This document shows positions 7,198 to 9,651 of a stretch of DNA of 64,000 bases, one piece after another. The notes below the pieces were generated by a model. The model was not told where the DNA came from. It ran no database searches and saw only the letters and a list, made by a program, of their open reading frames with translations. The position numbers were made by a program, and so were the translations under genes. How positions within the stretch are numbered: position 1 is the stretch's first letter; each line of letters begins with the position of its first letter. This DNA is from a bacterium. Lineage in GTDB: Bacteria; Vulcanimicrobiota; Vulcanimicrobiia; Vulcanimicrobiales; SCRA01. The DNA is taken from the NCBI GenBank assembly GCA_004297985.1, contig SCRA01000019.1, positions 1-64,000 of the forward strand, in the 5' to 3' direction.

Positions 7198-7781
7198 TGG
7201 GGGCTGCGCGGTGGCATGAGCTGGGCGCCGTTGTGCGCCTTCAGGTCGAGCTCGACCGCATCAAGGAAAACGAGAGCTCCCGCTATCGCGACGAGCTGAT
7301 CCGCCCCGTCGAACGCCTCCACGTCGCACCCGCGGGCGTGCTCGCGCCGGTCGGCGAAGCCTTCGTGGTGGACGTTCACCACGCCACCCATCCCCACTCG
7401 CGCTCCAACGGCACCAACCACCTCTCCATCGGCTTTACCGGCCACTATGAGGCGATGCAGGCGCGCTTCGGCGCCCACTTGGCCGTGGGAATCGCCGGCG
7501 AGAGCGTGATCGTGGAGCGCGCCGGGCGCACGTCGCTGGCCGACCTCGGCACGGAGCTGCTCTTCGAGCTCCCCGGCGGCCGGTCGCTGATCGTTGCCCG
7601 TCCGGCCGTGATGCACCCATGTGCCCCCTTCACGCGCTTCTGCTTGCGAGAGAGCCAGCCGCCGGCCAAGCGGCTGAAATCAGGCCTCCAATTCCTGGAC
7701 GAAGGCACGCGCGGCTTCAAGGTGATGCCGGCCGGCGAGGGCGAGTTGACCGCCGGGGTGCGTCTCTACGCTCGCCTTTAG
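7197..7781 (+). CDS. MOSC-like domain protein
   Basis: A 194-residue protein whose ATG at 7197 overlaps the previous stop codon. The first part is predicted beta-rich. The region VGIAGESVIVE through HPCAPFTRFCL to LQFLDEGTRGFKVMPAGEG resembles the MOSC domain, in which a conserved cysteine (here probably in HPCAPFTRFC) binds sulfur or molybdenum cofactor. The assignment rests on these stretches and is tentative. Its last three bases overlap the end of the converging peroxiredoxin gene. Confidence 0.5.
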   Translation: MGAARWHELGAVVRLQVELDRIKENESSRYRDELIRPVERLHVAPAGVLAPVGEAFVVDVHHATHPHSRSNGTNHLSIGFTGHYEAMQARFGAHLAVGIAGESVIVERAGRTSLADLGTELLFELPGGRSLIVARPAVMHPCAPFTRFCLRESQPPAKRLKSGLQFLDEGTRGFKVMPAGEGELTAGVRLYARL

Positions 7782-8338
7782 CGGCTCTTCGCTCCGCTGC
7801 GCAGGCTTTTGAGAAACGCGACGGCGCCGTTTGTATGCGCTAGCGGGCTGGGGTCACGCAGCGTCCAGAGGATCGTGCCGTCGCGGCCGATGACAGAGGA
7901 GACGCGGTCGGCATAGGTCGTCCCGGCATAGACGACCGCGGCACCGTAGGCGTCAACGGTCACCTTCGGGAGGGCGACGAAGGCGAACGGTACATGTTCG
8001 CCGGCGGCGAAGCGCGCCAGCGTCGGTACGTCGTCCCGCGCGCCGCCGACGATGGTGGCCCCGTATCCCTTGATCTCCGCTGCACGAGCGGAGAAGGCGC
8101 GCGCCTCGATCGTTCAGTCCGGCGTGAACGCTTTCGGGAAGAAGTAGAGCAGCACCATTCCGTCGCGCGCCGCAGCATGCCGCAGGCTGAAGGTGAACGC
8201 CTTGCCCGCGAGCGTCGCGGGGGCGGTAAACTCGGGAGCGGCATCCCCCGCAGCGAGGTGGGCCGCCGCCCATGCCCGCTGCGGGGCCGCCGCGAGCGCG
8301 GCCAGACCGGTGAGCATCCACGCACGAGCGATCGTCAT
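7778..8338 (-). CDS. Exported peroxiredoxin-like protein; candidate selenoprotein (UGA at the peroxidatic position)
   Basis: Read from the ATG at 8338 through an in-frame TGA at 8114-8116 to the TAA at 7778, this is one 186-residue protein. Residues 1-25 are a signal peptide ending in AWA. A Bcp/AhpC-TSA thioredoxin fold follows. The motif around the active site reads LLYFFPKAFTPD-UGA-TIEARAF, where relatives have a Thr-Pro-Gly-Cys-Thr peroxidatic site, so UGA replaces the catalytic Cys at residue 75. No other cysteine exists in the protein. A hairpin placed like a bacterial SECIS follows the UGA. The start overlaps the stop of the acyl-CoA dehydrogenase gene (ATGA). The alternative is a nonsense mutation in a pseudogene, but the downstream half keeps an undisturbed peroxiredoxin-like frame. 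Confidence 0.72.
8074..8094 (-). promoter_or_regulatory. SECIS-like hairpin after the in-frame UGA
   Basis: On the mRNA strand an 8-bp perfect stem (TCTCCGCT / AGCGGAGA) closes the 5-base loop CGTGC. The loop begins 27 bases after the UGA and has G as its second base. Bacterial SECIS elements, as described for Sec genes in general, have an apical loop about 16-37 bases after UGA with a G among its first two bases. The hairpin lies inside the coding sequence, as bacterial SECIS elements do. Confidence 0.6.
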
Positions 8339-9510
8339 GAGAGTCCTAGCAGACGCGCGATGACCAGGCGCTGGACCTCGTTGGTCCCTTCGCCGATCTC
8401 GTTGATCTTTTGATCGCGGTAGTAGCGCGAGACGGGGTACTCGTCCATGAAGCCGTAGCCGCCGTGGATCTGCACAGCCTCGTTGCAGACGCGCCGGGAG
8501 ACTTCGCCGGCGTAGAGCTTGGCCAGCGAAGCGCTCATGACGTAGTCGCGCCCCAAATCCTTCTCCCACGCCGCCTTCAGCATCATCAATTTGGCGTGCT
8601 CGATCTCCATCTTCATGTCGGCCAGCTTGAACTGGATGGCCTGGAACTTGCCGATGGCGTTGCCGAAGGCGTGGCGCTCCTTGGCGTACTTCAGAGCCGC
8701 CTCGAAAGCGGCGGTGGCCAGGCCCAGTGAGACGGCCGCCACCGAGATGCGCCCGCCGTCGAGAATGTCGAGGAACTGCTTGAAGCCGCGGCCGCGCTCG
8801 CCGAGCACGTTCTCCGCGGGGATCGTGGCGTCGGCAAAGGATAGCTCGCGGGTATCCGACGCGCGCCAGCCCATCTTGCGATACTTCTTGCTGGCGGAGA
8901 ACCCGGGCGTGTCCTGGGGCACGATCAGGTTGGTGATCTCCTTGCGCCCGTCCGAGCGCATCCCCGTCCAGGCGGTGATCGTCGTGCCGCCGGTGATGCG
9001 CGTTCCGGAGTTGGTGATGAAGGCTTTGGCGCCGTTGATCACCCAACGGTCGCCCTCGAGCGTGGCGCGCGTCTGCACGTTGCCGGCATCGGAACCGGCC
9101 CCGGGCTCGGTCAGCCCGAATCCCCACAGCGTCGTCCCCTGCGCCAGCGGAACCAGGTACCGCTCCTTCTGCGCCTCGCTGCCGAAGAGGTAGAATGGGG
9201 CCGAACCCAAGGACGTGTGCGCCGCCATCGTGATGCCCACGGAAGCGTCGCCGCGTGCGATCTCCATCACCGCCAGGGCGTAGGAGACGGTATCGCTGCC
9301 GATCCCGCCGTACTTCTCGGGCCAGGGAATCCCCATCAGCCCAAGCTCCGCCATCTTCGCGACGATCGCGTAAGGGAACTCGGCGTTGGCATCCAGCTCC
9401 TCGGCGGCCGGCGCGATGAGGTCATCGGCGAGCTCGTGACAGAGCTTCTGAATCGCCTCCTGTTCCGGCGTGAGGTCGAAGCTGAGACCGGCGTTCATGG
9501 TTGCCTGCAT
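8335..9510 (-). CDS. Acyl-CoA dehydrogenase
   Basis: A 391-residue protein from the ATG at 9510 (AGAGAG upstream; a second ATG lies at 9498). It has the three acyl-CoA dehydrogenase domains: N-terminal helices, the central FAD-binding beta domain with LTEPGAGSDAG and the following WVINGAKAFITN, and a C-terminal helical domain with HGGYGFMDEYPVSRYYRD and IGEGTNEVQ. It catalyses FAD-dependent alpha,beta-desaturation of an acyl-CoA; the chain length or branch preference cannot be read. Its stop overlaps the peroxiredoxin start, so the two are co-translated. Confidence 0.95.
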   Translation of the reverse strand: MQATMNAGLSFDLTPEQEAIQKLCHELADDLIAPAAEELDANAEFPYAIVAKMAELGLMGIPWPEKYGGIGSDTVSYALAVMEIARGDASVGITMAAHTSLGSAPFYLFGSEAQKERYLVPLAQGTTLWGFGLTEPGAGSDAGNVQTRATLEGDRWVINGAKAFITNSGTRITGGTTITAWTGMRSDGRKEITNLIVPQDTPGFSASKKYRKMGWRASDTRELSFADATIPAENVLGERGRGFKQFLDILDGGRISVAAVSLGLATAAFEAALKYAKERHAFGNAIGKFQAIQFKLADMKMEIEHAKLMMLKAAWEKDLGRDYVMSASLAKLYAGEVSRRVCNEAVQIHGGYGFMDEYPVSRYYRDQKINEIGEGTNEVQRLVIARLLGLS

Positions 9511-9651
9511 GTTATCTCTCTTGTGGCGGGCGAAACGGGCGGCGCTCTCTTTACGGGGCGGGGTGAAGGGTTCCTCGCGCACGCCCGATAACCGGAACAT
9601 ACAACGACAGCTTTCCGGAGCGCCTGTCGGTTGGCTCTGGAGGAGGCCGCG

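Follow-up and report, generated by a model that had tools for sequence, protein, structure and literature searches.

Does the TGA codon inside a peroxiredoxin frame of this Eremiobacterota/Vulcanimicrobiota genome break the gene, or is it read as selenocysteine (Sec)? The frame lies on the minus strand of the window, by which we mean the whole 64,000-nucleotide stretch of DNA that was analysed, and the genome to which it belongs (G000) is 3.19 Mb in size and 96% complete. Under standard annotation the gene would be called truncated or a pseudogene. The features that bear on the question are these:

7778..8338, minus strand: predicted Sec-containing peroxiredoxin gene (AhpC/TSA, PrxQ/Bcp-like), 186 aa, ATG at 8338, stop TAA
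8114..8116, minus strand: in-frame TGA, predicted selenocysteine (residue 75, the peroxidatic position of PxxxTxxU)
8074..8094, minus strand: predicted bSECIS hairpin with a stem of 8 bp and the loop CGUGC, the apical loop lying 27 nt past the UGA; -12.8 kcal/mol
8264..8338, minus strand: putative N-terminal signal peptide, residues 1-25, where AlphaFold confidence is low
8335..9600, minus strand: upstream acyl-CoA-dehydrogenase-like gene, named from a reading of the sequence alone
7779..7781, plus strand: stop of the open frame downstream, which runs convergently; it overlaps the stop of the peroxiredoxin

The frame, the fold and the locus

The initial annotation described a single frame from 8338 to 7778 with one interruption, and the DNA bears this out: the only stops are at codon 75 (TGA, 8116-8114) and codon 187 (TAA), the translated peroxiredoxin contains no cysteine, as had been claimed, and the active site reads FFPKAFTPD-U-TIEA. 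The open frame alone is weak evidence, because this DNA is 67% GC and the other frames of the peroxiredoxin segment have only one to four stops each. The evidential weight lies not there but in the Pfam match that crosses the TGA, in conservation and in the register of the hairpin.

The match to Pfam AhpC-TSA (PF00578) spans the TGA, running from residue 31 to residue 157 with E = 1.3e-15. In the AlphaFold2 model (pLDDT 89) residue 75 begins the helix formed by residues 73-84, and the top Foldseek matches of the model are Bcp/PrxQ and related peroxiredoxin structures. The sequence P68-KAF-T72-PD-U75 conforms to PxxxTxxU, and R145, which we take to be the catalytic arginine of the peroxiredoxin family, is invariant in the homologue alignment. 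The protein scores below the cutoffs of both NCBIfam equivalogs with which it was compared, PrxU (NF040737; 22.2 bits against 270) and Bcp (NF006960; 54.3 bits against 140). It is probably exported, judging from a short hydrophobic stretch at the N-terminus that ends AWA|AA.

The TGA stop of the acyl-CoA-dehydrogenase-like gene overlaps the peroxiredoxin ATG (ATGA), an arrangement that suggests translational coupling to the upstream gene. In two congeners (G001 and G002) the convergent downstream gene comes immediately after the acyl-CoA-dehydrogenase-like gene, and the peroxiredoxin is cleanly absent. Thus, within one genus, the segment corresponding to 7776-8341 of the window is either occupied by the peroxiredoxin or empty between the same two neighbours, and the peroxiredoxin is an accessory gene in its own genus.

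Residue 75 and its hairpin across relatives

We scanned 149 genomes of the phylum and found homologues in 98 of them. Among the loci examined, the codon for residue 75 is TGA in the window's gene and, within family f3, in 10 of the 11 genomes; in every gene of the Eremiobacterota family f2 it specifies cysteine. Cysteine is also found there in 79 of 80 named genome records; the one named record with TGA is from Eremiobacteria and is identical to G086 in the compared region. The initial annotation had proposed an alignment with cysteine-containing homologues, and in all of those examined, including those from other phyla, the cysteine falls exactly at residue 75. Extra stops or frameshifts, which the annotation had named as evidence against its reading, were looked for among the homologues examined and none was seen. 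Apparent UGA paralogues in two further genomes (G030 and G110) were discarded: the site has cysteine and the TGA that had been counted lies elsewhere in the match.

A third congener (G003) keeps the TGA and has a hairpin identical to that of the window genome; only the second half of this orthologue is seen, since the G003 contig opens 4 nt ahead of the TGA. Over the 103 codons past the UGA the two genomes differ with a dN of 0.10 and a dS of 0.51 (dN/dS about 0.19), from which we conclude that the region downstream of the UGA is translated and selected. A TGA shared with this congener and followed by a stretch under purifying selection is therefore the mark neither of a broken gene nor of a sequencing error.

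The hairpin claimed in the initial annotation, TCTCCGCT-CGTGC-AGCGGAGA (8094-8074), is present as described, with 8 bp and a start exactly 19 nt past the TGA. The published bSECIS model asks for a loop of 3-9 nt with a G in its first two positions, a stem of 4-16 bp, a distance of 16-37 nt from the UGA and an MFE of -7.5 or lower (PMC13188914), and the 5-nt loop CGUGC, 8-bp stem, 27-nt distance and -12.8 kcal/mol of the window hairpin lie within all of these limits. An N1-N2 pair closing G[G/U]N is common in bSECIS elements and is not required (PMC13188914); in the window's genus the corresponding C-C is unpaired, and in f3 the position is A-U.

When the structure is held to a single register of five pairs, with its apical loop 27-28 nt past the UGA, all five pairs form in 12 of 12 TGA genes, each of which also has a G within the first two loop positions, and at least four of the five form in 0 of 52 cysteine genes; the f3 sequences are relatives of one another, and their 10 conserved hairpins did not arise separately, which makes the count look more independent than it is. 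The chance level was estimated from the 1270 TGA triplets of the window, of which 1.8% are followed by an equally scoring bSECIS-like hairpin and 0.9% form the full set of five pairs in this register. Four of the stem pairs are invariant, while the fifth, a C-G pair in f3, has changed on both sides and is U-A in the window's genus; this exchange, accompanied at the protein level by a Leu-to-Ala difference, is one compensatory pair. Folded in isolation, the hairpin of the f3 genes reaches -9.9 kcal/mol.

Selenocysteine machinery and the reading of the UGA

The annotation had proposed a search of the same genome for the selenocysteine machinery, a lack of selB and tRNA-Sec being the outcome adverse to its reading. 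No such lack is seen in G000, where all four genes exceed their curated cutoffs: tRNA-Sec (71.7 bits against a cutoff of 47, anticodon TCA), selA (552 bits), selB (269.5 bits against 242) and selD (381 bits). Contig C72 carries selA and selB next to each other, with tRNA-Sec about 9 kb away. Across the order, selB exceeds its curated cutoff in 48 of 61 genomes. For genus g18, whose examined members have cysteine, no selB over the cutoff stood among the matches listed, and searches found no selA (five genomes), no tRNA-Sec (four genomes) and no selD over the cutoff (five genomes). One f3 genome (G084) has the UGA peroxiredoxin, and selA, selB and tRNA-Sec were not detected in its 370-contig assembly; it keeps a UGA-containing selD and an intact peroxiredoxin hairpin (loci L073 and L188). 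In G000 the machinery genes lie close together, so a single missing contig could explain this exception, which is probably an assembly gap.

Further in-frame TGA codons occur in the same genome. The selD gene (L051; G000:C7:42767-43690, plus strand) is itself a predicted selenoprotein gene with the motif SCAG-U-AS, and selD carries one TGA in all four genomes of the window's genus. A second peroxiredoxin, AhpC/PrxU-like (L053; G000:C21:4887-5273, minus strand), has an in-frame TGA at its active site (FTPV-U-TSQ), and TGA peroxiredoxins of this type are also found in G001 and G002. A third, of the Bcp type (L054; G000:C44:14045-14404, plus strand), reads ATPG-U-TDEA across its in-frame TGA, with a 7-bp hairpin just past it, and similar TGA copies occur in several f2 genomes.

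The codon could be read in other ways. That the gene is a pseudogene, decaying after a nonsense mutation, or that sequencing or assembly turned a TGC or TGT into TGA, would be in keeping with a single TGA that is one base away from the cysteine codons and with an accessory gene that two congeners do not have at the same place. Against this, the TGA recurs, unaccompanied by further stops, in G003 and in ten genomes from a second family, the region downstream of it is under purifying selection, and the positioned hairpin is found only in the TGA copies. Conservation has in the main already refuted this explanation, and we regard it as very improbable. The least probable of the alternatives is termination at the UGA, which would yield a product of 74 residues and leave a separate gene downstream: the sequence taken by itself is compatible with an ordinary TGA stop context, but the peroxiredoxin domain spans the codon, the relatives are continuous cysteine proteins and, according to the model, the truncated form would be without the catalytic helix.

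Selection on a full-length product would be equally expected if the UGA were read without selenium, by a near-cognate or suppressor tRNA (for Trp, Cys or another amino acid) or through reassignment of the codon. That, too, we consider highly unlikely. The claim that TGA is not reassigned is borne out: of the 10 genes that are clear in the first 16 kb it ends 7, so that most of the neighbours use it as their ordinary stop; tRNA-Sec(UCA), selA, selB and selD are present; the hairpin goes with the TGA copies and is lost in a cysteine copy nested among them; and the site alternates with the catalytic cysteine only.

The proposal that the UGA is decoded as selenocysteine is strongly supported by the machinery, by the column in which UGA and cysteine alternate, by the conserved hairpin and by purifying selection. 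On this genomic evidence the window gene almost certainly encodes a selenoprotein, with Sec predicted at codon 75. SelB carrying Sec-tRNA-Sec would bind the hairpin just past the UGA and insert Sec at that codon; the selenol would then attack peroxide, and the oxidised selenium would probably be reduced by an external thiol.

Exchange of selenium and sulphur, and known peroxiredoxins

The Sec forms fall in a clade with support of 100/96 in which one cysteine form (G080) is nested, and the tree requires two Sec/Cys changes; the window protein sits on a long branch and its fine placement in this tree is unsure. A clade of Sec forms without G080 was rejected by the AU test (p 0.021) because this cysteine form nests inside. 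G080 stands among Sec forms of its own genus; its codon is TGC, the G of the loop has been lost and the stem reaches only -1.8 kcal/mol. The simplest reading of these sequences would be one Sec clade with one later replacement of Sec by cysteine, in G080.

Each of the 50 cysteine homologues that fall outside the Sec clade carries two or more cysteines. The strict second-cysteine motif occurs in 46 of them and a variant form in the other four (SACR, HECN, NECR). This second cysteine is probably the resolving one. The alignment shows it in neither the Sec forms nor G080; one Sec form (L089) has a single cysteine elsewhere in the match. Since neither the Sec forms nor G080 have the second cysteine, reduction by an external thiol is probable, and the likely mechanism would be of the 1-Sec type with an outside reductant. 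It may be, with odds a little below even, that this is an exported clade in which the gain of Sec went together with loss of the resolving cysteine to give a 1-Sec extracytoplasmic peroxidase served by an outside thiol, and that G080 later went back to cysteine with no second cysteine and with a decayed SECIS. If this is true, G080 allows the direction of the Sec/Cys exchange to be told from the DNA. The gene offers a compact natural experiment: Sec and cysteine forms of one enzyme in which the presence or absence of the SECIS and the loss of the second cysteine track the exchange, one replacement of Sec by cysteine among them.

Peroxiredoxins with Sec are an established selenoprotein family (PMC13188914, PMC1088965, PMC1794560), described as PF00578/COG1225 with the motif TxxU in a review (PMC13188914) and in the Sargasso survey (PMC1088965); PrxU of E. 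acidaminophilum is cited there. A search of the open-licence literature for selenocysteine or selenium in Eremiobacterota, WPS-2 and Vulcanimicrobiota returned no relevant report, and in that phylum our results indicate that selenium is used across the order. The window gene is a divergent addition to the known Sec peroxiredoxin family in a poorly studied phylum. Like the TxxU Sec peroxiredoxins, its product has the AhpC/TSA fold and a predicted Sec at the peroxidatic position of PxxxTxxU, with a predicted bSECIS downstream of the UGA and widespread cysteine homologues; unlike them, it falls below the PrxU cutoff, belongs to Eremiobacterota, is probably exported and is without the second cysteine of its 2-Cys relatives.

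With the PrxQ/Bcp proteins (Sulfolobus Bcp1, 3drn; M. tuberculosis BcpB, 5epf; Xanthomonas/Xylella PrxQ) the window protein shares its Pfam family, the active-site threonine and the invariant arginine, and Bcp1 and BcpB are among the best fold matches of its model (TMt 0.89-0.90). The cysteine relatives have a second cysteine about 40 residues past the first, whereas the window protein has none, carries predicted Sec in place of the peroxidatic cysteine, begins with an export-like segment and scores 54 bits where the Bcp equivalog asks for 140. The cysteine homologues of f2 and of Proteobacteria (for example Paraburkholderia and Nevskia) resemble it in their signal-like N-terminal stretch and in having the same active site, with about 35-45% identity over the domain; they differ in having cysteine at residue 75, a second cysteine (SECR) and no hairpin in the SECIS register.
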